In this document: positions 3,618 to 31,699 of the stretch, one piece after another | How the letters are laid out: each line of letters begins with the position of its first letter | Numbering within the stretch: position 1 is the stretch's first letter | Virus record (IMG/VR): IMGVR_UViG_3300009705_000053 | Span: 1 to 35,289 of that record | Length of the DNA: 35,289 nucleotides | From: a virus | Reading direction: 5' to 3' (one strand) | Notes under the pieces: generated by a model | What the model was told of the DNA's origin: nothing | What the model saw: only the letters and a program-made list of their open reading frames with translations | The model's database searches: none | Translations under genes and position numbers: made by a program

Positions 3618-4097
3618 ATGGCAAACAAAGCATATCTCACGGCAATTTCGCGAAAGAAACTCTCTGGACCGATGCAATGGCTCATGAATAACAGACTCAT
3701 CCCAATGTGTCAAGAGGGGAAGAGGAAGCTGGATTACGGGTGCGGGCGAGGAACTGACGCCGAACAGCTCGACATGATGAAGTATGACCCGCATTACTTC
3801 CCGGACACCCCCCTCACTCCCGGCTTTTACTATTGCGTGACATGCAATTACGTCCTGAACGTCATACCCGAGAAAGAGGAGCGGGGGAAGGTTCTTTCTG
3901 CGCTGAAAGAATTGGGCAGCAACCGGGTGGGATCGGTCTACGTGTCAGTCCGAAACGACAAAAAGAGTCTTAATGGGTGGACCACCCGCGACACATGGCA
4001 GGGTTTAATCGAGGATAGCGAATTGGCCGAAGCCGGATTCGAGAAGATCTACACGAACTCAAACTTCAGAATGTTCCGATGGAGTATCACCACTTGA
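3618..4097 (+). CDS. SAM-dependent methyltransferase-like protein
   Basis: A 159-residue protein and the only convincing plus-strand gene. RKLDYGCGRGTDAEQLD (from about residue 36) is a class I methyltransferase SAM-binding loop, and YDPHYFPDTPLTPG followed by CNYVLNVIPEKEER matches the pattern of the methyltransferase domain in DNA-phosphorothioation-associated putative methyltransferases and related phage proteins. The first motifs are complete, but the domain is short and no target-recognition region is seen, so the substrate is unknown. Its 3' end overlaps the convergent gene ending at 4087 by 11 bases. Opposite orientation and an own promoter suggest a late insertion (moron-like). Confidence 0.7.
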   Translation: MANKAYLTAISRKKLSGPMQWLMNNRLIPMCQEGKRKLDYGCGRGTDAEQLDMMKYDPHYFPDTPLTPGFYYCVTCNYVLNVIPEKEERGKVLSALKELGSNRVGSVYVSVRNDKKSLNGWTTRDTWQGLIEDSELAEAGFEKIYTNSNFRMFRWSITT

Positions 4098-4389
4098 CCT
4101 TGTCTGACCAATATGCTGCGCTCATCTTACCTTTTGCAATGTTCTTGCGATGCCGCGCCTTGAAGCTTTTCCTCCTAGCCGCACTAGCATCGCTTTCCCC
4201 TTCCTTCTTGGGGCTACCGTCCACTCCTTGCTCCCCAAATCGAATCGTCTTCACATCGTCACCGCTTTTCGCAACGACAATATGGCTCTTTGTAGGGTGG
4301 CTGGGTGTCGCCTTGGGCTTGTTGTAGCCACTTACCCCCGCCCGCTCTAATCGCGAATCCTCTTCGATGAAGGCACTGAATGATTTCAT
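4087..4389 (-). CDS. Small basic phage protein with capsid-targeting-like N-terminus
   Basis: A 100-residue protein of a type common in marine T4-like phages: a middle NKPKATPSHPTKSHIVVAK segment, then RFGEQGVDGSPKKEGES, and a basic ARRKSFKARHRKNIAKGKMS tail ending AAYWSDKVKW. The N-terminus MKSFSAFIEED resembles the T4 internal-protein capsid-targeting peptide MKTYQEFIAEA, with a possible prohead-protease cut after IEE. I infer a protein carried inside the head, where the basic tail could bind DNA. It is convergent with the plus-strand methyltransferase, overlapping by 11 bases, and begins a run of similar genes up to 15.4 kb. Confidence 0.75.
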   Translation of the reverse strand: MKSFSAFIEEDSRLERAGVSGYNKPKATPSHPTKSHIVVAKSGDDVKTIRFGEQGVDGSPKKEGESDASAARRKSFKARHRKNIAKGKMSAAYWSDKVKW

Positions 4390-4447
4390 TTCTTGAAAGA
4401 CACAATCTTTTAAAGAACAGTCCTTTTATAAAGAATTGGCTAGATGA

Positions 4448-5830
4448 CTAAACTTCTTCAACTTTACCTTTTAAAACTAAAGGGCGTGTAACTGAATTCC
4501 AATCTTTCAACTTGTTGCTGAAGAAAGGCTTTCCTCCTTCTTTTCTATTGACGGCTAAAGTTACGTGTTTTATATCATTTTTACTTGGAACAGGCGAAAC
4601 AACTCCAACCGCCATAACTAAATCATCTTTAGCAAATGTTTTTACAGTTAAAGGCGCTTCATCTCCTACCATATTTTCAGCAGGACCGCCGTCTGCATCT
4701 CCCATATTTATTGTCATATGGTGAGCGATAACTTCCCATCCTTCTGGAATGTCATCTTTAAATCTAGAAACTAACTTATCTCTGGACGCTTTGTCTAAAA
4801 CAAGTGCTGTGTAACTCATAACCTTTGCGGCTTCTTCCATGCCCCATGCGGGACGCTTCTTCATGGACCGCTCACGTTCGATCTTATCGAAGCGGACTGC
4901 CAGCTCATAACTTCCATCATAGTTGGTAGCATTAGCAAAATCAGCCAGAGCGACCGCACGTTTCTTGGTGGGGGCATCCTCAATCACGGTCCCCTCATTG
5001 TCAATTACGACCCACCGCATACGGCGCCCGAGGGCGCGGTGTAATGTCCCTGTCACCACTTCCATTTTAGTGGCGGAAAACGCCTTTGCGGCTTCTTCCA
5101 AATCATCATCGTCGTCGTCGTCCTGTTTAAGTTCCTCCTCCTCTGGGACATCCTTTTTCTTTCGCTTCCCGAAGGGCATTGGACGACCCTCAATAGACCC
5201 TGCCACAGTGGTCTCCTTCTTGAGGCTCGCCTCGGTGACAAAAATGGTGGTGCCAGTATCATGATGGTAGACCGGAAACACAGGGGTCCCGAAGATGCTA
5301 CCGACCGGCTTGCTATCGGTAGCGGACACCTTGGTGTCTTTGTAGGCAAGCAAATCTCCCGTAATGGGAAGTGCAACATCCTCAGCTAACACGTAGTCTC
5401 CAACTTCAATCACTCCATGCTCGCCCATCCCATCAACCACGCCATCTTCATTCAGCCAAGCATTAAACATGAGAGGACTCTCCCGAAGGTCGTCCATTGA
5501 AAGATCTACACCACATGACTCGGAGATGACTTTCAGGATACTGTCATCACTCAGCCCGGTGTTCTCCTTGATCAACCAAAACGCCGATAGGTATCTTGCG
5601 ATTGTGGTTTTGCCCAAGGGGATTTTTCCCAACAGGCGGCGAATATTGAAGACCAGCCGGTGAAAGAGGGTGTATGCACCCTTTTCCTCTTTAGACTCTG
5701 GTCGTTTCAGGCGCACCCCATCCTTATCAACAACACCCTCCTTGAAAGCAGCAGTTTTCTCCCATGGCATTGTGAGTAGCCGAAGGAAACGAAAGGCATA
5801 TGCATTGTCGGCGAAGCTAAGTAGTCCCAT
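4448..5830 (-). CDS. Modular head-type protein with C-terminal 2H phosphoesterase-like domain
   Basis: A 460-residue protein in three parts. Residues 1-150 match a conserved marine T4-like family (FRFLRLLTMPWEKTAAFK, then AYTLFHRLVFNIRRLLGKIP). After an acidic linker with seven Asp, a site LEEA at 244-247 leads into a small module (WVVIDNEGTV, then TKKRAVALADF), and a second MEEA at 331-334 leads into a C-terminal domain. That domain has two HxT motifs, HMTI at 371-374 and HVTL at 422-425, the signature of 2H phosphoesterases, which act on cyclic or 2'-5' phosphates of RNA or nucleotides. The C-terminal coding region is AT-rich (about one third GC on sampled lines against about half nearby). 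The two EEAAK motifs match prohead-protease sites, so the domains may be separated in the capsid. Confidence 0.65.
   Translation of the reverse strand: MGLLSFADNAYAFRFLRLLTMPWEKTAAFKEGVVDKDGVRLKRPESKEEKGAYTLFHRLVFNIRRLLGKIPLGKTTIARYLSAFWLIKENTGLSDDSILKVISESCGVDLSMDDLRESPLMFNAWLNEDGVVDGMGEHGVIEVGDYVLAEDVALPITGDLLAYKDTKVSATDSKPVGSIFGTPVFPVYHHDTGTTIFVTEASLKKETTVAGSIEGRPMPFGKRKKKDVPEEEELKQDDDDDDDLEEAAKAFSATKMEVVTGTLHRALGRRMRWVVIDNEGTVIEDAPTKKRAVALADFANATNYDGSYELAVRFDKIERERSMKKRPAWGMEEAAKVMSYTALVLDKASRDKLVSRFKDDIPEGWEVIAHHMTINMGDADGGPAENMVGDEAPLTVKTFAKDDLVMAVGVVSPVPSKNDIKHVTLAVNRKEGGKPFFSNKLKDWNSVTRPLVLKGKVEEV
4822..5100 (-). repeat. 18-bp direct repeat flanking a protein module at protease-site codons
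   Basis: CCTTTGCGGCTTCTTCCA occurs exactly at 4822-4839 and 5083-5100 (plus-strand reading). Each copy encodes an EEAAK motif in the gene at 4448-5830. The DNA between encodes one small module, and the AT-rich 2H domain starts immediately beyond the first copy. Confidence 0.8.
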
Positions 5831-5831
5831 A

Positions 5832-6200
5832 TTAAATATCCTGTAGTTGTTTTGCTATGGAGAGGTCCATGTTTGCACATCTTTGCTCCTGCGCCGGTAG
5901 ATAATTCAAAAACATTAAAAACGAATTGAGTGGATCGTGTAGGTCATCATCAATTTTGTATCGCAGCATCCGATTGGCGGCTTCTATGTCGAAGACGTTG
6001 TATAGTGTGATGATGTGGTTGAGCACCAACCGAATGTTAATTTTATTTGAGTCTTTGTATTTCCTGAGCAGCCGCAACAAATAAGAGAAGCGGTTTATGT
6101 CGTCATAGAAATCGGTTAAATCCACGCACCGATTGTTCCGATAGTGTTTTGCCGCAAATAGTTCAAAATTTTTGGAAGTGATTTCATCAAACAGCGTCAT
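5832..6200 (-). CDS. Conserved T4-like phage protein of unknown function
   Basis: A 122-residue, largely helical protein (MTLFDEITSKNFELFAAKHY, then DINRFSYLLRLLRKYK, then VLNHIITLYNVFDIEAANRML). This pattern recurs in marine T4-like phages; no enzyme motif is visible. It starts after an AATAAATA box that overlaps the end of the upstream gene and is 6 bases before the ATG, resembling T4 late promoters (TATAAATA). One base separates it from the next gene. Late expression and a structural or assembly role are possible but only inferred. Confidence 0.7.
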   Translation of the reverse strand: MTLFDEITSKNFELFAAKHYRNNRCVDLTDFYDDINRFSYLLRLLRKYKDSNKINIRLVLNHIITLYNVFDIEAANRMLRYKIDDDLHDPLNSFLMFLNYLPAQEQRCANMDLSIAKQLQDI

Positions 6201-6205
6201 TGCTG

Positions 6206-6481
6206 TTATTTATTCTTCCCCTGCAACCCCTTTGAAAGTTCATTAATGGCATCAGCGAGTTTATCAGAACTTTTGACCCACCTGCCGGTCATCTCACTGC
6301 GCTCTTCCTTGCCATCATCCAACATGGTCTTTACCAAGTCGATGTGCCGCTTATTATGATTTGTCGAGGTGCGAATAAAGAGGACAATAATCCCCACCAA
6401 GGAACCAAACATCAACCCAATTATCCCGTAATCTCCCCATGATGTTGGTTCATGGATGGTTGATAGCAGAAACGGGATCAT
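6206..6481 (-). CDS. Small membrane protein, holin-like topology
   Basis: A 91-residue protein with one strong membrane span (GIIGLMFGSLVGIIVLFI, about residues 18-35) followed by a long charged helix (NHNKRHIDLVKTMLDDGKEE) and a Lys-rich end. This is the plan of BhlA/UviB-like small phage membrane proteins, some of which act as holins. The neighbour at 6485-6808 is another membrane protein, so the pair may form a holin/antiholin or an envelope-modifying unit. No endolysin gene is seen in the window, so the lysis role stays a guess. Confidence 0.55.
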   Translation of the reverse strand: MIPFLLSTIHEPTSWGDYGIIGLMFGSLVGIIVLFIRTSTNHNKRHIDLVKTMLDDGKEERSEMTGRWVKSSDKLADAINELSKGLQGKNK

Positions 6482-6484
6482 GTA

Positions 6485-6808
6485 TTAGTTTTTTGTGCCG
6501 CGAAGTCTCACTAAGACCCAGAGCAGATGCAACGTGGTTGTGCTGGTCGCAAAAAACATGATGAACCGAATCCAAGACTGTAGCACAAGGGACCAATTAT
6601 CCAAGGCTCCGGTATGGGCGGCATATGCAAAAGACACGGTGCCAAGACCGATGATACCCTCCCCGATGAGTTGCCATGATATCGCTCGGGAAAGCCTTTG
6701 TGCCGACGACCTCCCTCCTGCATATGCTCCGAAAAACATTGCCGTTACGCAACTCAGGACTACGGTAAGTATCCCAAGAATAAGTATGACTGCTGTAATG
6801 AACTCCAT
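6485..6808 (-). CDS. Multi-span membrane protein
   Basis: A 107-residue protein with three or four hydrophobic spans (FITAVILILGILTVVLSCV, then IGEGIIGLGTVSFAYAA, then SWIRFIMFFATSTTTLHLLWVLV). No family was recognised. An AAGGG ribosome-binding site lies shortly before ATG 6808. It is immediately upstream of the holin-like gene, with a 3-base gap, and is probably expressed with it. A role in lysis or membrane remodelling is plausible but unsupported by any motif. Confidence 0.55.
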   Translation of the reverse strand: MEFITAVILILGILTVVLSCVTAMFFGAYAGGRSSAQRLSRAISWQLIGEGIIGLGTVSFAYAAHTGALDNWSLVLQSWIRFIMFFATSTTTLHLLWVLVRLRGTKN

Positions 6809-6924
6809 TTAACCCTTTTGTTAGTGTTTAAGCTACTGGCTTGTATACCAACCCACCACGATCCTCTGCGCTGGTTGACTTGGCTTCACCCACGGCTCGC
6901 AAAAGCCAATCCCGCAACCGATCA
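6809..6924 (-). other. Gap with an open frame that could extend the upstream gene
   Basis: The 116-base gap after the stop at 6925 contains no promoter or terminator that I can see. On the minus strand one frame stays open to a stop at 6828 and reads protein-like (FNDRLRDWLLRAVGEAKS, then AEDRGGLVYKPVA). It would join the upstream gene if one G were lost from the GGG run at its end. See findings. Confidence 0.35.
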
Positions 6925-8370
6925 TTAAACCCTGCTATAATATTCGTTCTTCGATTTAGACTTATTGATGAGTTTGAATGCAATATCAGCCATCTTAGTG
7001 ACACCAAAATCGGTGAACGATTTTTGGTTTTTGGAACCCAACTTATCGTAAACCTGCGTGATTGCAGATGCCGAAAAAGCATCAACATCAACGGATTTGT
7101 TCAACTTGGTGTCCTTGACATTTTTATGTTGGTGGTCTTTGACAATGCTTCTGAGTTGTTTGATAAGCTCAGGTTCTGAGGCTGCTTCTTCAAGTTCCTC
7201 AGTGGATTCCTTAACATTCCTCACAGAAACTGTATCGCCATCACGCTCAACTTTTAGCTTCTTGGACATCTTCTCGCCCAGATCGTCGTCATCATCGTCG
7301 TCGTTCCCCACGCTATCAGGAATATCAAGCTCAACCTCGCTCTTTACCATCTGTCGCTGTGCCTTCGCATACGCGAGTTTACGAATCTTCTCTCGGAACT
7401 CCCTGCGGCGACCATCAATGGGAGATGCGCCCTCATGCATATCCTCACGGGATTCGCCCATCATCCTCATCACCTCTACGTGATCTAACTTATGCTTGAA
7501 CATCAACCGGGAAGCAGCACTTCGGCTAACAAAGGCGATGCGGGCCTTGACAAGTTTTTTGAGAAACTCTTTGTCGTCATCAAGTTCCCTGATCGTGTCA
7601 CTAAGTTTGGAAGCATCCTCATGACCAATCTTCTTCCCGCGAAGAGGCTCGTATACTTGACGGAGACGTTCAATTTCTTTCCCGGATGAACTTTCTTTCA
7701 TCGGTTCTTTTTTAACATACCCGGTAGAGACCTCGATATCTCTGAGTTTGTCTTTCTCACTATAGTGACCGTCATCATCATCATCAACATCATCAACGGT
7801 GTCCAATAGAGAAGCAACAATTTCGTCCTCTTCCTCATCGGTTAGATCGTAGTCAAAATCTTCGTCCATATCATTGTCTTTCGTTTCAGTCTCCTCGGAG
7901 ACGGTTTCTGTGTCTGTGAGGCGCTTATTGCCACCAATCACAGTATTTCCTTCCACTGTCACACGACCCGCTATGAAGGCATCGCCTTTGACAGTCGCCT
8001 GTCCGCGCACACCCGCCCAACCAGAAATTTGTGCTTTACCCTTAACTGTGGCATTACCGTAGATAACCGCATTCAGGTTGACATTAGCCTTCTCGGAGAC
8101 ACTCGCATTATCAGAAACCTCAGCGTTCCCAGAAACCTCCGCGTTCCCAGAAACCAGTGCGTCATCCATGACTTGCGCATTATCCATGACTTGCGCATTA
8201 TCGGAGATCCAGCAATTGCCGTCATGACTCAGGTTATCTTCGGATTCGATGAAGCCACCAAGGTCGTCTTTCCGCACCCTGTGTTTTGGTAGCGATATTA
8301 GCGCCCGGATCTGCCGCAACCTCTTGTTTTTTGGATGTGCTGCCTCTGTGATTTCATATTTCAATTTCAT
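6925..8370 (-). CDS. Beta-helix repeat plus marine T4-like domains; probable packaged polyprotein
   Basis: A 481-residue mosaic. Residues 35-145 begin GGFIESEDNLSHDGNCW and continue with six-residue repeats of the V-S-G-N-A-E type, the left-handed beta-helix of YdcK-like proteins. A long acidic linker follows (runs of Asp at 170-200). Residues 265-345 hold a basic helical domain (FLKKLVKARIAFVSRSAASR). A second Asp run precedes a site LEEA at 393-396, and the last domain (LRSIVKDHQHKN, then SASAITQVYDKLG, then MADIAFKLI) resembles a conserved marine T4-like module. LEEA fits the T4 prohead protease consensus. The N-terminus MKLKYEITEA resembles a capsid-targeting peptide, but is also typical of the YdcK family, so it is weak evidence. 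Confidence 0.7.
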   Translation of the reverse strand: MKLKYEITEAAHPKNKRLRQIRALISLPKHRVRKDDLGGFIESEDNLSHDGNCWISDNAQVMDNAQVMDDALVSGNAEVSGNAEVSDNASVSEKANVNLNAVIYGNATVKGKAQISGWAGVRGQATVKGDAFIAGRVTVEGNTVIGGNKRLTDTETVSEETETKDNDMDEDFDYDLTDEEEDEIVASLLDTVDDVDDDDDGHYSEKDKLRDIEVSTGYVKKEPMKESSSGKEIERLRQVYEPLRGKKIGHEDASKLSDTIRELDDDKEFLKKLVKARIAFVSRSAASRLMFKHKLDHVEVMRMMGESREDMHEGASPIDGRRREFREKIRKLAYAKAQRQMVKSEVELDIPDSVGNDDDDDDDLGEKMSKKLKVERDGDTVSVRNVKESTEELEEAASEPELIKQLRSIVKDHQHKNVKDTKLNKSVDVDAFSASAITQVYDKLGSKNQKSFTDFGVTKMADIAFKLINKSKSKNEYYSRV

Positions 8371-8384
8371 TTTAGCAGGAATCG

Positions 8385-10694
8385 TTAAGATATGTAGGCA
8401 TTCAACTCATAACGACCGCTTTCCATCCCAAAGACCTGAAAGGCAGCGGTTCTGCGGGTCTCTTTTCCATTTTTTTCAAGTTCAACAATGATGCTGTTAG
8501 TCTTGCCAGCAGAAGGCTTTCTAGGACCAGTCGAAACCTTGTTAAACCAGTTGTCTGGGTCCACTGTGTATCCGTTTCTGGCAATGAGATCCAGAACCTC
8601 ACTGAGAGCATCGGTGTAGGAGGTATGATAGACTTCATAATCCTTCTTGCCCTTGCTCCGTTCTTCCAGAGAATTTGCAAAATCTTTCAAATTCTTGGAT
8701 TCATCGACTGAGTATTTTGCCAAGACGAAATAGCTTCCGGGGTTGCTCTTATCCAGAGTAGCAACGTATGAGTCCCCATCAAATGGGTGAATCCAGACGG
8801 AACCACCCTTTTTGATCACCATTTCGGGATGCCCTCCAAATCCTCGCGACCCATACGGATCAAAAGAACCCGCACCAGCGACTTTAAGTTCGACCCGACT
8901 CCTTGCCTTGATCCACTGTTTGCTATCTGGTTTGATGCCTGTATTTAAAAGGGACTTCGCCGCCTCATCCAGATTGGAGTAAATGATACTCAGGATGTAG
9001 TCACGGGGATCAGTATCCATGGTAGAGGCATACTTCAGGGCACCCGACTCATCGCCCTTCTGGAGCATCTTGGCGACTGCAAGCATATCAGCCTTATCAA
9101 TGCCACCATGTTTCTTGGCATAAGCCTCAAGGTCTTTACCTTTCCCCTTCAGATCACTAGATTTTCTGGCAGGAGGGAGGTCGCCCTTGGCCTCATCGAG
9201 ATCGACTTCTTCGTGCAGTGTCCAAATAATTTCAGCAATTTTCTTCACTCCTGATTTGTCATACATCTTGCTGGCATAGCCGAAACCTTTCCTAACAGCA
9301 TCCTTTGCGTCTTTGGGATTAACACCAGTTTTAACTAGGTGCGCTTCAACGTCTTTTGGTGTTACTTCCTTGGCCTCATCCAGATCAACATCCTCATTCT
9401 CAGTAGATTCTTTGACGGGTTTGCCGTTCTTTGAGATGAATCCCTTATACCCATCGGCTTGCACATCACGCAAATGCTTCTTGGCCTTGTCTAGTGTCAT
9501 AAACTTAGCGGTAGAGATCGGCCCGCGCCTGCTCTTGCCGTATCTGACCCAATATTGAGGCGCATCGCCACTCGACGGGAGGGTGAAACCGGGATCATCA
9601 GATATCCAAGGCTTCCCTTTCACTGCCTCGTTCTTCTCAGGCTTCTCATCATCTGCCTTCCATCCGGCATCAATCTCATCATAGAACTTCTTCTTGTCCC
9701 CATCAGCGAGATCACCGGGAGATTTTGCTCCATACTTCTTGAGAGTTTTCTGAAAGAATGCCTGATATGCCTTCTTGTCACCCTTGGTGTCTTTCTCTGC
9801 GCCTTCATCAAGGAGTGCGTTTCCGGTCACATAATTCTGTGCCGCAGGAATCAAAACCTTGTCATAAAACTCTCTAGATCCACCGATCCAGCCCCACCCA
9901 TCATTTGAAACCTTCCCGCCATGCTTCTTGGCAATATTGATAAATGCATCGAGACCGGGTCCAGACCCCCTGTAATCGGTAACTGCCTTGTCAAAGGTAG
10001 GTGGATTGGAGAAATCGTCATCATCAAACACCTTGTTCTTCTTCAGCCAATCGTAAGCAACTTTACCGGAAATCTTCCCTTTCGTAGCCTCCTCAAGATC
10101 TTCAGTTTCCTCGGTATTCGCTCCCTCCTGAACGTATTCTGCCTTGGTATCGGTGTAACGCTGGTTTCCCAGTGTATACCAGCGTGATGTCCACTCCTTG
10201 GGCACCTTTTTAAGGGCAAGGAGGGCATCCTCAACCGAATCAAAACTACCAAGAGTGACCACTTTGGCCGAAGACCACTTTGCTCCCCGGCCTTTCAGGA
10301 TCTCATAGGCAGCAGTCACCCGATTCTTACCGTATTGACCGGTTAGGGTATCGACAGTTTTCACCAACTTACCACTGTATTCTCCCTCGTCCATACGATT
10401 CAGATCATCACAATCACGCCCCTCATTGACAAAATCCACAGCAGCAAGCATTGAGCCTCCGGTCTTAGGGTCATTGACCAACATAGTAACCGTCCCATCA
10501 GGAAGTTTCCCTCTGAAATCCCTACCAACTTTTTTCCATTCTGCTTTGGTTATCAGAACTTTGTTGTTTTTGATCTCGTATTTCGCCTCAGTGACAAATG
10601 ATGGAGATTTTACATCCTCGGAAGAAGGTCCCCCGGACATGATTTTTTCGGCCACCCCGGCCATTTTACGGATGAGCGCGTTGTCGTTAAACAT
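8385..10694 (-). CDS. Large modular polyprotein with five predicted prohead-protease sites
   Basis: A 769-residue protein made of short unrelated modules. Sites of the L-x-E-[AG] type occur at residues 200 (LEEA), 295 (LDEG), 438 (LDEA), 499 (LDEA) and 575 (LDEA), giving six segments of about 60-200 residues. Recognisable marine T4-like modules are KKAYQAFFQKTLKKYGAKSP (307-326) with FYDEIDAGWK, a YWVRYGKSRRGPIST module near 381, and a C-terminal module with DALSEVLDLIARNGYTVD, DNWFNKVSTGPRKPS and YELNAYI. No catalytic motif was found. I infer processing in the prohead into separate internal proteins. A perfect T4-late-like TATAAATA lies 9 bases before the ATG, overlapping the stop of the upstream gene. 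Confidence 0.7.
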   Translation of the reverse strand: MFNDNALIRKMAGVAEKIMSGGPSSEDVKSPSFVTEAKYEIKNNKVLITKAEWKKVGRDFRGKLPDGTVTMLVNDPKTGGSMLAAVDFVNEGRDCDDLNRMDEGEYSGKLVKTVDTLTGQYGKNRVTAAYEILKGRGAKWSSAKVVTLGSFDSVEDALLALKKVPKEWTSRWYTLGNQRYTDTKAEYVQEGANTEETEDLEEATKGKISGKVAYDWLKKNKVFDDDDFSNPPTFDKAVTDYRGSGPGLDAFINIAKKHGGKVSNDGWGWIGGSREFYDKVLIPAAQNYVTGNALLDEGAEKDTKGDKKAYQAFFQKTLKKYGAKSPGDLADGDKKKFYDEIDAGWKADDEKPEKNEAVKGKPWISDDPGFTLPSSGDAPQYWVRYGKSRRGPISTAKFMTLDKAKKHLRDVQADGYKGFISKNGKPVKESTENEDVDLDEAKEVTPKDVEAHLVKTGVNPKDAKDAVRKGFGYASKMYDKSGVKKIAEIIWTLHEEVDLDEAKGDLPPARKSSDLKGKGKDLEAYAKKHGGIDKADMLAVAKMLQKGDESGALKYASTMDTDPRDYILSIIYSNLDEAAKSLLNTGIKPDSKQWIKARSRVELKVAGAGSFDPYGSRGFGGHPEMVIKKGGSVWIHPFDGDSYVATLDKSNPGSYFVLAKYSVDESKNLKDFANSLEERSKGKKDYEVYHTSYTDALSEVLDLIARNGYTVDPDNWFNKVSTGPRKPSAGKTNSIIVELEKNGKETRRTAAFQVFGMESGRYELNAYIS
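9186..9389 (-). repeat. Near-identical DNA at two LDEA motifs
   Basis: Plus-strand 9186-9206 and 9369-9389 match at 19 of 21 bases (CTTGGCCTCATC then GAGATC or CAGATC). Both encode VDLDEAK in the polyprotein at 8385-10694 and bound a module of about 61 residues. Confidence 0.7.
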
Positions 10695-10703
10695 ATATGT
10701 TCC

Positions 10704-10711
10704 TATTTATA
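10704..10711 (-). promoter_or_regulatory. T4-late-type promoter box TATAAATA
   Basis: The minus strand reads TATAAATA exactly, the T4 late promoter consensus recognised by gp55-loaded host polymerase. It overlaps the stop codon of the gene ending at 10707 and lies 9 bases before ATG 10694. The overlap with a stop codon makes chance a fair alternative. Confidence 0.4.
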
Positions 10712-11156
10712 CAATTTTAAGTTTCGAGAGTTTAATCGCCTTCTTCACTGAGTCTTTGGGGATATTGGAGACCGCATAATTTCCGGGGTCTCTGGGGTCC
10801 AGATTCGGAAGCTTCTTGCGGTTCAGAATCAGCAGGTATCCTTCTCCAGTGTCACGGTATGCCACCATAGCAAACCGTCCTGCCAGATGGATGTTGTCCG
10901 CGACATAAGAACCATCAATGTCGCTGGTGTTGCCGTCCCCTTTGGATTTCACTGATCCATCTCGGGTCAGAACCTTGTATTCAAGTTCAGAAATGCCCCG
11001 GTAGACCTCTGATCGTTTACTCTTTAGGTCATTGAGCCGGTCTGCAATGCGGCGAAGATCGCCTTCAGGCTCCCAGATCAGGAAATCCTCTACCTTGGAC
11101 TCTTCCAGATGACCAACGCTTTCGCCCCTCTTGTGAAATTGGGAAAATGATTCCAT
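10707..11156 (-). CDS. Hypothetical protein with capsid-targeting-like N-terminus
   Basis: A 149-residue protein. I choose ATG 11156 (MESFSQFHKRGESVGHLEES) over a GTG six bases upstream. The start resembles the MKSF-type leaders of neighbouring genes, and HLEE at 16-19 is a possible prohead-protease site. The rest has no recognised domain; it contains LRRIADRLNDLKSKRSEVY (helical) and a beta-rich part (GRFAMVAYRDTGEGYLLIL). Two flanking genes are of the same modular class, which supports a head-internal role by association only. Confidence 0.6.
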   Translation of the reverse strand: MESFSQFHKRGESVGHLEESKVEDFLIWEPEGDLRRIADRLNDLKSKRSEVYRGISELEYKVLTRDGSVKSKGDGNTSDIDGSYVADNIHLAGRFAMVAYRDTGEGYLLILNRKKLPNLDPRDPGNYAVSNIPKDSVKKAIKLSKLKIV

Positions 11157-11183
11157 GGTCACACTACATCCGAATCACCCTTG

Positions 11184-11891
11184 TTAGAATTGAATTGTAA
11201 AGGCGCGATTTCCAAATTCAATTACTCGAAATTTGGGACCCTTTGCCAATTTGCTGATCTGTATATCGGTGATCTTGATTGAAGACCCGCCCGTGCTTTC
11301 CTTGAAAGTAAATGCCGCTGCCTCTCCGACCGCAGTGTTGAAAAAATATTTGGCATCTGCACGGAGGGTTTTCTCCCAGACCGCGACCGCTTTTTCGGAT
11401 TTAGGGGAAAGATCTCCTCGGTCCTTCTCATCCTTAAATTGAGTGGGTTTCGCACTATCATCCTTGAAGGTAGCTTCATCGAGATCCCCCTCGACTTCCT
11501 CATACCGCAAGACCTTATCGCGGGTGAAGAAATTCCGCTTTCTCATGATCGTCTTTCCGATCAGTTCGATATCTCCAGTCTTCCTATTGAGACTCACGAC
11601 CACCGGAAGGTTGAGGTTTGATGTCACATCTTTGATCACTGCCTCAATATCCTTGGCTTTCTTGATTTGCTTTCCTCGATTTTTTGCAATTTTCGCAAAA
11701 AGTAATTGCAATTCATCCGCAACAATCTCCGGTGTATTGCGGTCATCGTTTACCCGATCCATAAAATGCCGTGTAAACTCAACTTCAATGCCAAATTTAT
11801 TAAGCAGATTGTCGGCATATGCCTCAACAGAATTGAGTTGTGCTTGCGTGATGTCTTCTCGTATGCTCTTGATGGTTTTCATGTTTTTCAT
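11184..11891 (-). CDS. Two-module marine T4-like protein with one protease-like site
   Basis: A 235-residue protein. Residues 15-125 (VEFTRHFMDRVNDDRN, then IVADELQLLFAKIAKN, then LVSLNRKTGDIELIGKT read as VVVSLNRKTGDIELIGKT, then IMRKRNFFT) form a conserved domain found in many marine T4-like phages, function unknown. LDEA at 137-140 (site EGDLDEATF) separates it from a C-terminal module (KAVAVWEKTLRADAKYFFN, then KITDIQISKLAKGPKFRVI). The start could be ATG 11891 or the in-frame ATG nine bases later; the second would begin MKTIKSIREDITQA, close to the T4 internal-protein leader. Three bases separate it from the preceding gene. Confidence 0.7.
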   Translation of the reverse strand: MKNMKTIKSIREDITQAQLNSVEAYADNLLNKFGIEVEFTRHFMDRVNDDRNTPEIVADELQLLFAKIAKNRGKQIKKAKDIEAVIKDVTSNLNLPVVVSLNRKTGDIELIGKTIMRKRNFFTRDKVLRYEEVEGDLDEATFKDDSAKPTQFKDEKDRGDLSPKSEKAVAVWEKTLRADAKYFFNTAVGEAAAFTFKESTGGSSIKITDIQISKLAKGPKFRVIEFGNRAFTIQF

Positions 11892-11894
11892 GTG

Positions 11895-13796
11895 CTATAC
11901 TTTGCGGATGGAGATCAACGATGTTCCCATGTCCCCGACCGCCAGAGTGACGCTTTCCCCAATCTTCTCGCCATAGATGTCCTTTTTATTCCTCTTGTAG
12001 AGAAAAAACTTAACACCCGCTCCATCTGGACGCCTTAGCGTGATCTTTTCTAGGTCATACTTTGCGCTTTTGGATTTCCTTCCCACCACCAAAGGCAGCC
12101 ACATTGTCGCTTTGCGCACACTGCTATCATACCAAACCTCCACTTTATCCTTTGATTTCAGAGAATCGAAGAACTTGACCAGATCTTCTGGAGATATTTT
12201 GGTGGGAGCAGACTCCTCACCCAAATACTCAGCTTGGTCGCCCAACCCATCCTCTGTGATGCCAAATTTCCTTAGCAGTTTTTTGTCTGCCCCAGCCATG
12301 TCCGAAATCCACTGTCTGGCAATAGGGGAGGTGGGTTTACTCTCTGAAAACGTCTTGAATTTCTTAAATGCATTAGTAGTCGCCTTTTGAAATTTCGCCC
12401 CAGCGTCATCACTGTTATCAACAATCACGAATTTATCTCCGAAGAATTGTTGAAAGCCGCCCAAATTGTTCTGGACATCGTTCCATCCCTGCTCTACTAC
12501 CTCTTTTTTCAGAGTTCTTTCCCGTTTTTCGTTTCGTGCTAGGGCAGTTTCGAGGTTGGTATTCACAAAAAGCATGGACACAGCATATCCAAATTTCTTC
12601 AGTCGCTCGGCCTGTTTCTTGATTCTAGAAAACGATTTGCCAGTGCCATCAACAACAACACCCAGACGACCGTCAATCCACAATCCCTCTTGCATCGTGG
12701 TGCGGGGTTTTGCAACCCATTTGCGGACACGTTGCCCGGATTTGCTCGATAAAATGTCTGGGTCGCCAAGCACATCCTCTTCGCCCACTCCGGGAAACAA
12801 TTTGCCGCTTTTGGCGGCTTTTTTCATAGCGCGTTCGAAGTGTACATCACTCGAAAGAACCTTAAACCCTAAAGCGGGCAGACCAACCCTGCCCAGAGTG
12901 TAGGATTTACCAGAACCCGGACCACCCGCCATGAATACCGCTTTGAAGATGGCAGGATCGCCCACACCTTCTTCAATGCTCCGGGGGTGAATGTCATCCA
13001 GCCAGCACTTCTGTTCCGCTCCCTCAATATCTTCACAGACCACAAAATTAGGGCATCGCTCTGTGATCACCAGCTCGGAATTGCCTTTGGTGACAATATC
13101 TCCCACATTGAATATCTTGCCTTGAGTGTAATCCTCTCGGACATCACTGACCTTGGGTAGAGAAGTGTGCTTGCGGTGACCGTAAGTCTCTTTGAGTCCC
13201 ATGCCTTTGCGAGTGGCATTCATCAATTCTTGAACCTCCCCGAAGTTCTTGGGAAGGTTGGAAGCAAAGGCTTCAAAGTCATTTGCAGCGGCGGCTTCAC
13301 GCAGTGTAGCCGAAGTTACCCCGGAGCGATTGGCTTCCTCAGAGAGGTTTGTGGTATCACCCGAAGAGACCACCCGAATACCATCACTGAAATGGTAGTG
13401 TCCGTCCTCTCGCATCTCTCCGTTGTGCTTGGTCAGCAATGCCGTGGTTGCAGCAACCGCACTCGATTCTGTGACATAGACGAGTTCAGTGTAACCTTTT
13501 TCGTATGCCTGATCAGCAATGCGAAGAACCTCCGTGACACTTTCATCCAATAGGATGTTTCGGGCATGTGTAGGAAACATTTTTCGCATAAACTTCACCT
13601 TGTCCCGATACTTCAGGGGGTTCGCCTGAGCATCCTGAGTCTGTGAAGAGTATATGCTGTAATCTGCCCCACCACCGGCCATTTCCGCAACCATATCAAG
13701 GGTCTCTTGGTGTGCCGAACTGGGTGGATTAAAATCTCCAAAAGTTACTACCAAGGTTTTTTGGCACTCTGTTATGTATTCTTTAAAGGATTTCAT
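11895..13796 (-). CDS. Fused nucleotidyltransferase and P-loop kinase with capsid-targeting leader
   Basis: A 633-residue multidomain protein. The leader MKSFKEYITEC is very close to the T4 capsid-targeting peptide MKTYQEFIAEA. Residues 12-200 are a cytidylyltransferase-like domain: TFGDFNPPSSAH (the HxGH-type motif, ending at His29) and SATLR at 162-166 (the SxTxxR motif). Residues 225-270 form a small beta-rich module (KIFNVGDIVTKGNSELVI). Site IEEG at 274-277 precedes a zeta-toxin-like P-loop kinase with Walker A GGPGSGKS at 291-298 and an R-rich lid (RNEKRERTLKKEV). A C-terminal 100 residues are unassigned. Similar fusions occur in marine T4-like phages. Likely reactions are nucleotidyl and phosphate transfer on a nucleotide or NAD precursor; substrates are unknown. 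Confidence 0.75.
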   Translation of the reverse strand: MKSFKEYITECQKTLVVTFGDFNPPSSAHQETLDMVAEMAGGGADYSIYSSQTQDAQANPLKYRDKVKFMRKMFPTHARNILLDESVTEVLRIADQAYEKGYTELVYVTESSAVAATTALLTKHNGEMREDGHYHFSDGIRVVSSGDTTNLSEEANRSGVTSATLREAAAANDFEAFASNLPKNFGEVQELMNATRKGMGLKETYGHRKHTSLPKVSDVREDYTQGKIFNVGDIVTKGNSELVITERCPNFVVCEDIEGAEQKCWLDDIHPRSIEEGVGDPAIFKAVFMAGGPGSGKSYTLGRVGLPALGFKVLSSDVHFERAMKKAAKSGKLFPGVGEEDVLGDPDILSSKSGQRVRKWVAKPRTTMQEGLWIDGRLGVVVDGTGKSFSRIKKQAERLKKFGYAVSMLFVNTNLETALARNEKRERTLKKEVVEQGWNDVQNNLGGFQQFFGDKFVIVDNSDDAGAKFQKATTNAFKKFKTFSESKPTSPIARQWISDMAGADKKLLRKFGITEDGLGDQAEYLGEESAPTKISPEDLVKFFDSLKSKDKVEVWYDSSVRKATMWLPLVVGRKSKSAKYDLEKITLRRPDGAGVKFFLYKRNKKDIYGEKIGESVTLAVGDMGTSLISIRKV

Positions 13797-13803
13797 CGTT
13801 TTG

Positions 13804-14730
13804 CTAGTCTTTGTCGCCTGATGCCATTCTTTGCTGCTCGGCTTTTTTTAGTTTTGGAATAAGTTTCTTTGCCATCTTTGTAATTTTACCCGACATTTTG
13901 GCAAGTTTTTTCTCGATACGCTCTTTCTCACTGAAAGACGCTTCTCCTTTATCTTTCCCCTTGAGTAGCTTTTTGAAAATAACATCCCGCGCCTTCTTTG
14001 TCGCCCGATTGAGAAGCTTCTCGGGGGACGCTTTCTTCGATTTGGCTTTTTTGATTGCCCGTTGCATTTTTGCCGAATTCCTTTTGGCAATATTAGAGCG
14101 CTTAATACGCTGAGAGCGTGTTAGTGCTTCGTCAAGGTCTTCTTCCTCCAACTCAGCATTTTCCTTTAAAGGATATCCAACCATCTCCCCAGATCTCTTT
14201 TCACCTGCTGGTTTTTTTAACTTAACAATTTTTAAAGTATTTTTATTTTTAATTGAAATTGGTGGTCTTTCTGATGAAGAGATTGTTCTTTTTGCACCCT
14301 CTTCATTTGATGCAGTACCAACTACAACATCATCATTTGCTGTATCAATCACAACATGAGTTGTTTTTACTGAATATAGTGCTTCATCAAGGTCTTCTTC
14401 CAGATCCAGACCATTAAGTTCGTCCTCGACGCCTTGAAGAACCCGGAGTCTCATTTGAAAAACACTCTCAGAGGGGTTGTTGTTTCCCACCATGCTAATG
14501 GCCTGATCAAAATCCACAGCGCGGGTGATGAGCCGTGTCAAGTGTGCCAGATCAGAGGTGATATCCTTCTTGAGTCGGCTCAGGGAAGTAGTCCCATGAA
14601 GCGGTATTCTCACTTTGGGGTCATCCGGGGTTCCGCCCGAAACGATAAAACCCTCTTCCAGATCTTCTGGAGACCCATCAACCCATGTCTCTAGTTCTGG
14701 GGTTTGGCGAATTTGTTCAAATGATTTCAT
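13804..14730 (-). CDS. Modular basic protein, probable packaged polyprotein
   Basis: A 308-residue protein starting MKSFEQIRQT, with three L-x-E sites: LEEG at 24-27, LDEA at 114-117 and LDEA at 199-202. The segments are an N-terminal helical part, a small AT-rich middle module (THVVIDTANDDVVVGTAS), and a strongly basic C-terminal domain (RSQRIKRSNIAKRNSAKMQR, then KKARDVIFKKLLKGKDK, then KMAKKLIPKLKKAEQQR) that resembles a conserved T4-like marine phage domain and probably binds nucleic acid. The same EEDLDEAL motif stands on both sides of the middle module, and the DNA encoding it is nearly identical. I infer cleavage in the prohead. Confidence 0.7.
   Translation of the reverse strand: MKSFEQIRQTPELETWVDGSPEDLEEGFIVSGGTPDDPKVRIPLHGTTSLSRLKKDITSDLAHLTRLITRAVDFDQAISMVGNNNPSESVFQMRLRVLQGVEDELNGLDLEEDLDEALYSVKTTHVVIDTANDDVVVGTASNEEGAKRTISSSERPPISIKNKNTLKIVKLKKPAGEKRSGEMVGYPLKENAELEEEDLDEALTRSQRIKRSNIAKRNSAKMQRAIKKAKSKKASPEKLLNRATKKARDVIFKKLLKGKDKGEASFSEKERIEKKLAKMSGKITKMAKKLIPKLKKAEQQRMASGDKD
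14122..14401 (-). repeat. 25-bp direct repeat flanking an AT-rich cassette
   Basis: Plus-strand 14122-14146 and 14377-14401 agree at 24 of 25 bases (starting TAGTGCTTC, ending CTTCTTCC). Both encode EEDLDEAL. The DNA between is strikingly AT-rich: by hand count one 60-base line (14221-14280) is about 22 percent GC while the line at 14401-14460 is about 48 percent. Confidence 0.85.
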
Positions 14731-14742
14731 GCTTTTTTGGTA

Positions 14743-15405
14743 TTAGGCTGCTTGAATCTTGGCGACCCATGTGTTGATTTTTTTGATGGCATCGGCGGAA
14801 TTTTTGAAATTGGTTTTTCGGAATTTGAAACGTCCGTAATCGCTGCTTATTTTCCCGGACTTCTGCTCTATGGAGATCATTTGCCAATCCGAATTCTGTA
14901 GAATTCCGTTGGTCCACTCGTTCTTGGGGTCCAGAGAGAGTTTTATGATCACATGCATATTTCCCGACCCGCCGCTATCGAGCCTTCCGCTATTGAACGA
15001 CCCCAGATCTGAATAATCAACATACACCCAAGGGACCTTAATCCCTTGTTTCAGCTCTTTCACAAAGTCCTCCACGGTATCACTGTTCAGGTCAACAGCT
15101 TCAGATATCACCGGGATGACATGCTCTGCCTTCACATATACCGAATTCGGGCTAGCCTTCTCTGCCTTCACATATGCCGCAAATGCAGACTCTGATTTAT
15201 CAGCCAGACCCTCTGCCTTATTAAGGTCAGAAGATGTGCCACCCAACCCCATCTTTTTCTCAAATCGCATCCAAGCAGTATGGGTCTTCAGGGCTTCTGC
15301 TCTGAGGGCATCAACTTCCGAGTCCTTGTGCGGTTTGGTCAAAAAGTCTTGATTTTCGTTAAGTGTGTCAGGCATAGCCATTTGTAGTTCGTCGTTTTTG
15401 CTCAT
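14743..15405 (-). CDS. Hypothetical protein at the head of the modular block
   Basis: A 220-residue protein with no recognised family. The N-terminal half is helical and Ala-rich (ALRAEALKTHTAWMRFEKKM, then ADKSESAFAAYVKAEK); ISEA near residue 101 is a possible prohead-protease site; the C-terminal half is beta-rich with KVPWVYVDYSDLGSFNSG and a basic end (KFRKTNFKNSADAIKKINTW). It is the first gene of the modular block in the direction of transcription and has a sigma70-like promoter directly upstream. ATG 15405 is the first start in frame. Confidence 0.6.
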   Translation of the reverse strand: MSKNDELQMAMPDTLNENQDFLTKPHKDSEVDALRAEALKTHTAWMRFEKKMGLGGTSSDLNKAEGLADKSESAFAAYVKAEKASPNSVYVKAEHVIPVISEAVDLNSDTVEDFVKELKQGIKVPWVYVDYSDLGSFNSGRLDSGGSGNMHVIIKLSLDPKNEWTNGILQNSDWQMISIEQKSGKISSDYGRFKFRKTNFKNSADAIKKINTWVAKIQAA

Positions 15406-29006: not shown

Positions 29007-29441
29007 TCAGGATGGTGCGTTTATATGCCTCTTCATGCGGGCAGAAAACTCCTTAGCGTTGTCCGGTGACATCACTTTAGCAAACTCTCTTGCTTTGGCG
29101 CGAGAGCATTGATATGCCAGAACAATACCGTCGATCATGTCATTATCAGGGACAGGCTTTGCCCACTTGGCAAATCTCTTCCGGGGTTTGGCTGCATTTT
29201 TCAGAAAATCATACTGCATCTTTGGTGGGAGGTGATGGTTTATGTTCATCTCATTCGCCAGCAGGATGGTATCCTGAAAATACGACAATGAGCGGTTGAT
29301 CACAAACGGGACGTAACTCTTGGATGGCGACTCTGGGTTCGCCCCCTCTTCAAGAGCATTACCCCCCGCAAAGAGGCTTTTTTTGCTCGCTGAATTGATG
29401 CTGTTCAGAAAGTCGAATACTTTCGGTTTTGAAATACTCAT
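29007..29441 (-). CDS. 62: Clamp loader small subunit (gp62-like)
   Basis: A 144-residue protein placed between gp44 and regA as in T4. VPFVINRSLSYFQDTILLAN, then EMNINHHLPPKMQYDFLKNA and RKRFAKWAKPVPDND match the pattern of gp62 in marine T4-like phages, with a C-terminal helical repeat. It joins the gp44 tetramer to load the gp45 clamp onto DNA. I choose ATG 29441 (MSISKPKVFDFL), which overlaps the gp44 stop by ATGA; a GTG at 29447 is a less likely start. Confidence 0.88.
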   Translation of the reverse strand: MSISKPKVFDFLNSINSASKKSLFAGGNALEEGANPESPSKSYVPFVINRSLSYFQDTILLANEMNINHHLPPKMQYDFLKNAAKPRKRFAKWAKPVPDNDMIDGIVLAYQCSRAKAREFAKVMSPDNAKEFSARMKRHINAPS

Positions 29442-30373
29442 TTCCACTTCGTCCTTGCCATAAGTTCAGTGAGACATGCCATCAGATTGATTTCCTTGTC
29501 CGCAACAAACGCGGCTTGGTATCCGTATTTTGCAAGAATCACAACTGCTTCAGGGATGCTTGGTGGGGTCATGTATTCATACAGCGAATCGTAGATTGCG
29601 CGAAAAGTGACGTTGCCATCAAGGTCACTGTTATTTGCCACCCACTGCCGAACACTCATGAATTCCCCTCTACGAAGCATCTCCATCATATCACGAAGAC
29701 TCTGGTCTGAGATGCTCACCAGCACATCGGGAGTTAATGTGCCTGATGTCGAATACCGTTGACACTCATTGATAACTCGCCGCCAATCTGGGGAGAATTT
29801 CTTGATCAATTCAACGAGGACTTTGATATCATACTCGACAGATTCTTTTTCGAGTATTGCTTCCAGCCTACGCAAAAACGCGGCCTGAAGAATTTCCAAA
29901 CCAGATTTTTTGAAATTGAAATCGAAAACAGAGCATCGAGAGTGTAGCGGCTCTATGATTCGATTCTTGAAATTGCAAGTCATCACAAATCGACAATTCG
30001 CACTAAACTCTTCAATGAATGCACGAAGAGCGGGTTGGGTGGAATTGGCATTCAGGTAATCCGCCTCATCAAGGATGACCACACGAACCCCGCCATCCAA
30101 TGAGATGGATGATGCAAAAGACTTGATCTTCTGTCGAAGGGTATCGATGCCACCCTCCTCAGAGCAGTTGATCAAAAGATAGTCAAGATCCAACTCATTA
30201 CACAATGCCTTGGCAACAGTCGTTTTACCGAGACCTGAAGATCCGGTAAAGAGCATATTTTGAAGGTCCCCGGAGGCTACAGTGTCAGCGAAGGTTTTCT
30301 TGAGGTCCGGGGGAAGGACCACATCGTTGATGAGTTGTGGGCGGTGTTTTTCGCACCATAGAAATTCTTTCAT
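29438..30373 (-). CDS. 44: Clamp loader large subunit (gp44-like AAA+ ATPase)
   Basis: A 311-residue AAA+ protein of the replication factor C type that opens and loads the gp45 clamp using ATP. Walker A GSSGLGKTT (44-52), Walker B VVILDEADYL, sensor I CRFVMTCNFKNRI and the SRC motif in PLHSRCSVFDF are all seen. Size equals T4 gp44 (319). The C-terminal collar domain follows. Translation is probably coupled to gp62. Confidence 0.96.
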   Translation of the reverse strand: MKEFLWCEKHRPQLINDVVLPPDLKKTFADTVASGDLQNMLFTGSSGLGKTTVAKALCNELDLDYLLINCSEEGGIDTLRQKIKSFASSISLDGGVRVVILDEADYLNANSTQPALRAFIEEFSANCRFVMTCNFKNRIIEPLHSRCSVFDFNFKKSGLEILQAAFLRRLEAILEKESVEYDIKVLVELIKKFSPDWRRVINECQRYSTSGTLTPDVLVSISDQSLRDMMEMLRRGEFMSVRQWVANNSDLDGNVTFRAIYDSLYEYMTPPSIPEAVVILAKYGYQAAFVADKEINLMACLTELMARTKWK

Positions 30374-31670: not shown

Positions 31671-31699
31671 ATTGTAGTGTAAAATATGCCGCAAGTCAA
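31671..31699 (-). promoter_or_regulatory. 45: Sigma70-like promoter for the gp45-44-62-regA operon
   Basis: Minus strand TTGACT (31694-31699), 17-base spacer, TACAAT (31671-31676): five of six consensus bases in each box. ATG 31662 is eight bases downstream, so the leader would be one or two bases. Confidence 0.7.

Follow-up and report, generated by a model that had tools for sequence, protein, structure and literature searches.

Putative head-packaged polyproteins with modules joined by predicted prohead-protease linkers in a T4-type phage of aquatic bacteria

Capsid-targeting leaders of T4 proteins, the sites recognized by the gp21 protease, core proteins that are cut several times and injected multidomain polyvalent proteins have all been described (PMC9026906, PMC5512222, PMC10052503). 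In T4, gp21 cuts after Leu/Ile-x-Glu, and processing is blocked by an Asp at the cut position of the leader of IPIII (PMC9026906). Here, we consider a viral stretch of 35,289 nucleotides (IMG/VR record IMGVR_UViG_3300009705_000053), hereafter the window, in which a block of genes at positions 4087-15405, located in the interval between the helicase and ribonucleotide reductase (RNR) genes, encodes proteins with T4-like leaders and repeated L[DE]E[AG] motifs. The block is probably a cassette of head-packaged proteins, many of them precursor polyproteins that gp21 would cut into modules in the prohead. A literature search covering few subscription journals retrieved no head polyproteins with exchangeable functional modules separated by prohead-protease linkers, nor any capsid-targeting leaders described in cyanophages.

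The window has genes that mark a phage of T4 type, namely RNR, a DnaB-type helicase, a RecA/UvsX-like protein, a family-B DNA polymerase, a clamp and a clamp loader (named from the translated sequences). Judged by the transferase of the block, the nearest annotated relatives are Pelagibacter phage HTVC008M, phage C48C1, Methylophilales phage Melnitz and cyanophages, which belong to the Kyanoviridae by record taxonomy wherever the latter was looked up. The phage is of T4 type, Kyanoviridae-like and aquatic.

In the proposed mechanism, some block proteins have a capsid-targeting leader of T4 type, about 10 residues long, and the precursors would consist of modules of roughly 60-150 residues, enzymes and a basic bead included, connected by acidic linkers whose last residues are (L/I)-(D/E)-E ahead of Ala, Gly or Ser. 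Precursors would enter the prohead with the scaffold core, some by means of the leader and the rest by another, presumed route. The serine protease gp21 would strip the leader and cut each linker after its Glu, freeing the modules inside the head, from which they may be ejected with the DNA. The linkers would double as recombination seams, at which modules are added, lost or reordered with their neighbours unharmed.

Putative cleavage motifs and module seams

The 3,677 residues of the block contain 11 copies of the motif L[DE]E[AG], where whole-protein shuffles predict 0.45, and the 6,944 residues outside it contain three (0.73 expected), where one occurrence is the Walker B motif LDEAD of the clamp loader and another lies within the DNA polymerase. 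When residues were shuffled inside 20-residue windows, which keeps local acidity, 0.53 occurrences were expected in the block and the maximum across 2000 shuffles was 4. With the same shuffles, the Asp control L[DE]D[AG] was found 0 times against 0.59 expected, and the reversed motif does not occur in the block either. Since the nine tested block proteins contain more Asp (284) than Glu (255), the enrichment of the one motif and the lack of the other fit a protease needing Glu before the cut. The motifs had been put forward as matches to the gp21 consensus, and this reading has gained from the controls: the enrichment is Glu-specific, survives local shuffling and stands far above chance in the block. 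The claim that the motifs usually come after acidic stretches has exceptions at residues 295 and 575 of protein 8385-10694 and at residue 274 of protein 11895-13796.

The looser pattern [LI]xE[AG], mildly raised outside the block (16 versus 9.2), was dropped as a site predictor because it over-predicts, and some LxE[AG] matches are implausible cut sites. A single ALEE↓G (the arrow marks the putative cut) at residue 32 of a clamp-loader-region protein (29007-29447) lies away from any acidic linker and is probably a chance match.

Modules of the window were searched for in relatives (fetched loci, designated L with a number) and the residues upstream of each match were inspected. The kinase module, which in the window starts behind IEE↓GVGDPAIF, is preceded by [LI]xE in 13 of 13 cases, be it behind leaders (FIEE↓GKNDPAIF in L075, YLEE↓G in L052, FIDE↓G in L058, FISE↓GVNDPAI in L250 and MIPFILKE↓GLYDPGIF in HTVC008M) or inside other polyproteins (LNE↓G in L257, LTE↓G in L334). 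The basic bead found here as LDE↓A before LTRSQRIKR corresponds to LDE↓ALTRAQRIKR in L001, L002 and L004, and stands alone behind leaders in L031 (MKSFHEFYADE↓A), L013 and others. Similarly, the SKVEDFLIWEP module lies behind HLEE↓S here, behind MKSFTEYITE↓S in L008 and behind LNE↓ (LNE↓S in L004) after a different domain in L003 and L004. For the KKAYQAFF bead, the window has LDE↓G upstream, L101 and Vibrio phages have leaders (MKQTFREFLEE↓S in the latter), and Tenacibaculum phage pT24 has INE↓S, within a protein of 936 residues. Over nine modules, 32 of 44 starts of internal modules have [LIVM]xE at the start or no more than 18 residues upstream, the control giving a mean of 8.9 and a maximum of 17 among 500.

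The KKAYQAFF bead is annotated as 'DNA ligase 1' in Vibrio phage Va1 (L208:7959-8144) and in phage pT24 (L207:6207-9017), apparently a propagated mis-annotation of a 61-residue leader-bearing protein and of a polyprotein.

The polyproteins of L002, L003 and L004 (633, 708 and 772 residues) are near-identical save for insertions and deletions of whole modules, whose breakpoints fall at repeated ESVEELEE/ESTEELEE linkers, one seam being flanked by an identical 23-nucleotide DNA repeat. Such gain and loss is expected if every linker-to-linker unit is an independent protein. The suggestion that internal LxE motifs are prohead-protease seams between modules is thus strengthened by the residue-specific enrichment, the retention of the seam with changed neighbours and the exchange of whole modules.

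With two degenerate DNA patterns for the linker, 130 stretches were collected from viral contigs, and the EEVDLDEA seed was masked before counting. The 61 non-redundant proteins retrieved contain 79 further L[DE]E[AG] sites against 4.0 expected (Asp control, 4 versus 3.3; reversed motif, 5 versus 4.2), with a median spacing of 88 residues; examples with many sites are L279 (614 residues, six sites) and L244 (929 residues, five sites). Beads of proteins 6925-8370 and 8385-10694 recur behind EEVDLDE↓A in L246, L240, L301, L334 and L311. In this set, gp23 is encoded in 5 of 16 records, including every record of at least 57 kb, and the L241 polyprotein is encoded just upstream of gp21. We consider it fairly likely, if less firmly so than for the block itself, that T4-like phages of aquatic bacteria widely use exchangeable beads-on-a-string head polyproteins, in which the linker E-E-[VT]-[DE]-L-[DE]-E↓[AG] would be both protease site and recombination seam, many injected effectors would be loaded and swapped as single-gene cassettes, and processing would be confined to the assembling capsid. 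HTVC008M, in which L[DE]E[AG] is nearly absent and leaders of the classic type are lacking, was set aside as a model genome.

Leaders, virion proteomes and the prohead protease

The leader consensus covers about 10 residues (K-S-F-K-x-Y-L-x-E), and the relatives contain dozens of MKSFKxYLxE N-termini on otherwise unrelated proteins grouped in the same genomic block. A leader weight matrix trained on 53 leaders, all from IMG/VR loci, was run on the proteome of Synechococcus phage S-CREM2, for which a virion proteome is published (PMC10665884, Table 3). Seven of the eight top-scoring products are virion proteins (gp154, gp6, gp13, gp14, gp136, gp15 and gp137), among them the cytidylyltransferase gp154, the S-adenosylmethionine (SAM) hydrolase gp6 and the APH-like kinase gp14; the eighth is an open reading frame (ORF) with a leader upstream of its annotated start. 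A score of at least 8 is reached by 5 of 14 non-structural virion proteins and by one of the 185 ORFs not detected in virions (P=5e-6, or 6e-5 when the homologous gp154 is left out); this single ORF passes only if translated from further upstream than annotated. Four S-CREM2 virion proteins (L214:3837-5081, 10310-10546, 10579-12846 and 12843-13331), comprising the SAM hydrolase, the APH-like kinase and two small neighbours, have the leader-like starts MKDFDSFLEE (SAM hydrolase), RFDAFLTE (APH-like kinase), MKDLHSFLTE and MNFSEFNE.

Homologues of the cytidylyltransferase domain of 11895-13796 were detected in virions by mass spectrometry in three cyanophages, namely S-SCSM1 (MKSFLQFLKE↓A), S-CREM2 (MKNFSSFLTE↓A) and S-SZBM1 (MRFRQFIIE↓A). 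In S-SCSM1 and S-SZBM1 the gene has the same place, adjoining the helicase gene. The helicase-RNR interval of S-SCSM1 corresponds to the position of the block; SSCSM1_89-93, 95 and 97 are recorded as virion proteins or so noted, SSCSM1_91 being the cytidylyltransferase/NMNAT with the leader MKSFLQFLKE↓AAESG, and the picture in S-SZBM1 matches. Taken together, the leader profile and the published virion proteomics of relatives give experimental support, in these relatives, to the leader half of the original claim, that is, packaging by a T4-type leader. In S-SCSM1, the virion protein of gene 93 (L209:10493-10702) has a capsid-targeting-like end, LPE↓KKKRTFKEFLEYIE, at its C-terminus and not at its N-terminus.

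In the window, only the proteins at 4087, 10707 and 11895 pass the leader profile (scores 11.8-19.9), and the leader of 10707 has no final Glu. Among the starts initially listed as MKSF-like leaders, these three are strong and that of 13804-14730 (MKSFEQIRQT) fails the profile; neither the latter nor the leader of 10707 has a Leu/Ile-x-Glu end at residue 10.

The gp21 protease, for which a search of the rest of the genome had been recommended, is absent from the window record, as expected of a fragment; gp21 (PF03420) is present in 11 of 12 tested contigs carrying block relatives, both closest ones included, and gp23 accompanies it in 11 of 12. In the closest relatives, gp23 has ITE↓ where the T4 cut is expected in its N-terminus, [LI]xE[AG] sites are numerous in gp22 and lie in an acidic context, and LAE↓A is present in the C-terminal part of gp21. 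The C-termini of marine T4-like gp21 (L158-L164, L086:14633-15292 and L212, which is S-SZBM1) share a conserved, leader-like FxxFLxxL-like tail (VFEDFLSKL, VFQDFLSKL, LFKDFLNTI, EFKNFLSLIKSKL and AFHEFLQSL), several directly after LAE↓A; judging from sequence, it may serve for core targeting from the C-terminus and be lost through self-cleavage.

Proteins and predicted sites of the block

The ORFs, leaders and motif positions of the preliminary description were all exact on recheck, but several genes of 4087-15405 are not part of the cassette: 5832-6200, 6206-6481 and 6485-6808 show no sign of membership, and that of 14743-15405 is weak. Block genes were classified by family search (Pfam, phrogs). 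The features are as follows.

4360-4389, minus strand: leader MKSFSAFIEE↓ of the 100-residue protein 4087-4389 (leader-profile score 15.4)
4448-5830, minus strand: predicted two-part precursor with a conserved N-terminal domain (phrog_18642/2086) and a 2H-phosphoesterase-like C-terminal part (phrogs)
5090-5101, minus strand: predicted site LEE↓A, residues 244-247 of 4448-5830 (motif and shuffle controls)
6925-8370, minus strand: predicted precursor with a YdcK-like beta-solenoid, a YEPLRGKKI bead, an acidic linker and an IKQLRSIVKD bead (Pfam PF18836)
7183-7194, minus strand: predicted site ESTEELEE↓A, residues 393-396 of 6925-8370 (motif, controls and linker comparison)
8385-10694, minus strand: predicted 769-residue polyprotein with six predicted beads (five L[DE]E[AG] sites)
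10086-10097, minus strand: predicted site LEE↓A at residue 200 of 8385-10694 (motif; L002 has the same bead behind ESVELEE↓A)
9801-9812, minus strand: predicted site LDE↓G at residue 295 of 8385-10694 (motif; bead behind leaders in L101, L102, L206 and L208)
9372-9383, minus strand: predicted site DVDLDE↓A at residue 438 of 8385-10694 (motif; bead behind EEV[DE]LDE in L240, L301, L334 and L338)
9189-9200, minus strand: predicted site EVDLDE↓A at residue 499 of 8385-10694 (motif; in L246 the same bead, with 58% identity, is preceded by EEVDLDE↓A)
8961-8972, minus strand: predicted site LDE↓A at residue 575 of 8385-10694 (motif)
10707-11162, minus strand: 151-residue packaged-protein candidate (leader MESFSQFHKR, residues 3-12, score 11.8)
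11097-11108, minus strand: predicted site HLEE↓S, residues 19-22 of 10707-11162, ahead of SKVEDFLIWEP (same module elsewhere; overlooked in the preliminary description)
11184-11891, minus strand: predicted two-bead precursor (N-terminal bead behind the leader MKSFKNFNEE↓ in L202, also an internal bead of longer proteins)
11472-11483, minus strand: predicted site LDE↓A at residue 137 of 11184-11891 (motif)
11895-13796, minus strand: leader, cytidylyltransferase/NMNAT-like domain, zeta-toxin/AAA_33-like kinase and C-terminal bead (phrog_395, phrog_3041, PF06414, PF13671)
13767-13796, minus strand: leader MKSFKEYITE↓ of 11895-13796 (score 19.9)
12966-12977, minus strand: predicted site IEE↓G at residue 274, at the transferase/kinase junction of 11895-13796 ([LI]xE aligned in 13 of 13 homologues)
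13804-14730, minus strand: predicted polyprotein with the leader-like start MKSFEQIRQT and three beads (motif positions, composition)
14650-14661, minus strand: predicted site LEE↓G at residue 24 of 13804-14730 (motif)
14380-14391, minus strand: predicted site LDE↓A at residue 114 of 13804-14730 (motif)
14125-14136, minus strand: predicted site LDE↓A at residue 199 of 13804-14730, ahead of the basic bead LTRSQRIKR (motif and same seam in relatives)
14743-15405, minus strand: possible, weak member (lone ISE↓A at residue 100, no leader)

The predicted products comprise a cytidylyltransferase/NMNAT-like enzyme, a P-loop kinase, a 2H phosphoesterase-like domain, a very basic bead and about ten uncharacterized small domains. 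The enzymes initially named (2H phosphoesterase, nucleotidyltransferase and kinase) are in line with the matching families listed for 11895-13796 and with two H-x-T motifs, HMT and HVT, read directly in the sequence of 4448-5830. In relatives, the N-terminal part of the latter is a separate protein of 195-239 residues, and its 2H part is elsewhere stand-alone or fused. The mature part of 4087-4389 is basic (isoelectric point, pI, 10.2) and a homologous bead lies behind ADLDE↓ in L257 and behind an MQGFREF leader in L314. The last bead of 13804-14730 is strongly basic (pI 11.0, net charge +27) and probably binds DNA. Beads of 6925-8370 recur behind EEVDLDEAKM (L246, L311) and VDLDEA (L289), and homologues of those of 8385-10694 are shuffled among L002-L004, L240, L246, L301 and L334, the bead after residue 295 lying behind IEE↓A in L002 and INE↓S in L207. 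The ORF 10707-11162 begins with a GTG, hence the location of its leader at residues 3-12 (MTMESFSQFHKR).

A tblastn search for loci related to 13804-14730 returned nothing, its basic bead being recovered by profile; 14743-15405 gave just a weak phrog match and no relatives among the fetched loci, and PDB sequence searches with 11895 and 4448 gave no match. In the AlphaFold model of 11895-13796, the predicted local distance difference test (pLDDT) is below 50 at the leader (residues 1-10) and at the IEEG stretch (273-279), both flanking folded domains, and LREA at residue 165 lies within a helix, where a cut is implausible. A PDB fold search groups the kinase of this protein with small-molecule, polynucleotide, dephospho-CoA and zeta-toxin kinases. 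In the model of 8385-10694, the ordered modules (305-347, 441-475, 513-570 and 690-769) all lie between sites; a viral fold search with the whole model was uninformative. The expectation that structure prediction would place the sites in linkers holds for IEEG at 274 and is weakly supported by the low-confidence model of 8385.

Outside the block, 31696-32451 encodes a second beta-solenoid (hexapeptide-like) protein, whose N-terminal LGGFIESEDNLSH(D/E)G module is common to 6925-8370 and, as its sequence indicates, is a bead duplicated there. A short ORF at the window edge (35077-35286) contains tandem NPVK/KNPVKVK repeats.

Alternative explanations and known systems

Several observations weigh against gp21-cut, head-packaged precursors. 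Cleavage products are not known from any of these phages. Proteins 8385, 6925, 4448 and 11184 have no strong leader and 13804 fails the profile, the HTVC008M cassette has no classic MKSF leader, and the S-CREM2 virion also holds leaderless proteins, e.g., the Cas9-like gp12 located between leader-bearing neighbours. The authors of that proteome allow that some enzymes may be contaminants (PMC10665884). In the leader-bearing proteins of L001-L080, internal sites are not generally enriched, which indicates that the polyprotein form is lineage-dependent. The 35-kb window, a fragment ending before the head genes, has no gp21, gp22 or gp23, so that a gp21 of this phage is presumed from its relatives. 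Lastly, the model of 8385 has a mean pLDDT of 52 with more than half of the chain at low confidence, so that the location of its sites in disordered stretches is weak evidence.

The alternative that survives best, though we regard it as unlikely, is that intact multidomain effectors are packaged and injected, with LDEA linkers acting as flexible spacers and recombination seams that stay uncut or are cut later in the host. Uncut packaging of polyvalent proteins is known in other phages, e.g., the N4 virion RNA polymerase (PMC5512222), and repeated linkers would help recombination even without cleavage. However, a mere spacer needs neither Glu over Asp, nor Leu three residues from its end, nor Ala/Gly next; the N-terminal leader, which has to be recognized in the prohead, has these very residues at its end, and the seam is retained whether the neighbour is a leader or a module.

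T4 core proteins contain multiple gp21 sites and are for the most part broken down to peptides (PMC9026906), and gp22 of relatives has similar acidic linkers, so the multi-site proteins could be conceived as a scaffold-like prohead core that is chopped, like T4 gp22, gp67 and gp68, its fragments leaving the head with no bead delivered. This seems improbable, as the beads are conserved, often enzymatic and exchanged as intact units, several exist as single leader-bearing proteins, and multi-site block proteins were detected in mature virions (S-CREM2 gp155 and gp160; S-SCSM1 89 and 92). That acidic composition alone gave rise to the motifs, and chance to the MKSF starts, in an ordinary accessory region is hardly credible: the block proteins are indeed rich in Asp and Glu and [LI]xE[AG] is slightly raised outside the block, but the local-composition shuffles and the Asp and reversed controls already refute it for the motif statistics, and an independent leader profile predicts virion content.

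If packaged precursors cut by gp21 are the correct explanation, a single gene could supply the head with several small proteins to be delivered into the bacterium. By the rules for leader and linker, many proteins of abundant aquatic phages that are now hypothetical could be predicted as virion effectors with boundaries of their own. The rules would also account for the recurrence of enzymes such as cytidylyltransferase, SAM hydrolase and kinases in the virion proteomes of cyanophages, and offer a simple handle for finding new anti-defence proteins and designing phage-head cargo. Polyproteins that give rise to more than one mature functional protein are characteristic of RNA viruses; the phage system would parallel them, but with processing restricted to the assembling capsid.

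Among known systems, T4 IPI-IPIII and Alt, which gp21 matures, resemble the block in their leader of about 10 residues (F/Y-x-x-F/Y-x-x-E) cut after L/I-x-E, and as accessory, variable genes whose products are packaged with the DNA, packaging here being deduced by homology. Unlike the precursors proposed here, with several modules and a site at each joint, the T4 internal proteins are single proteins losing a leader only; the location of the block as a cassette between helicase and RNR genes also differs. T4 gp22, gp67 and gp68 likewise have several gp21 sites per chain in acidic surroundings, but they are destroyed and mostly removed, whereas the pieces here look like conserved, reusable domains. 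The ejection or inner-body proteins of SPN3US and phiKZ share a gp21-like protease cutting after x-x-E and the large number of packaged proteins; they differ in that mainly N-terminal propeptides are removed (motif S/A-x-E in phiKZ) and in not being chains of modules that can be exchanged. Polyvalent proteins (Iyer et al. 2017, PMC5512222) also combine many effector domains per injected chain, 2H and nucleotidyltransferase domains included, and the transferase-kinase protein is a multidomain chain, its packaging again judged only by homology. For polyvalent proteins, processing has been proposed via built-in zincin metallopeptidases, which are common but not universal. In contrast, no peptidase domain, zincin/MPTase included, was found in the block proteins by family search, and the cut would be made at a repeated linker by the prohead protease acting in trans.

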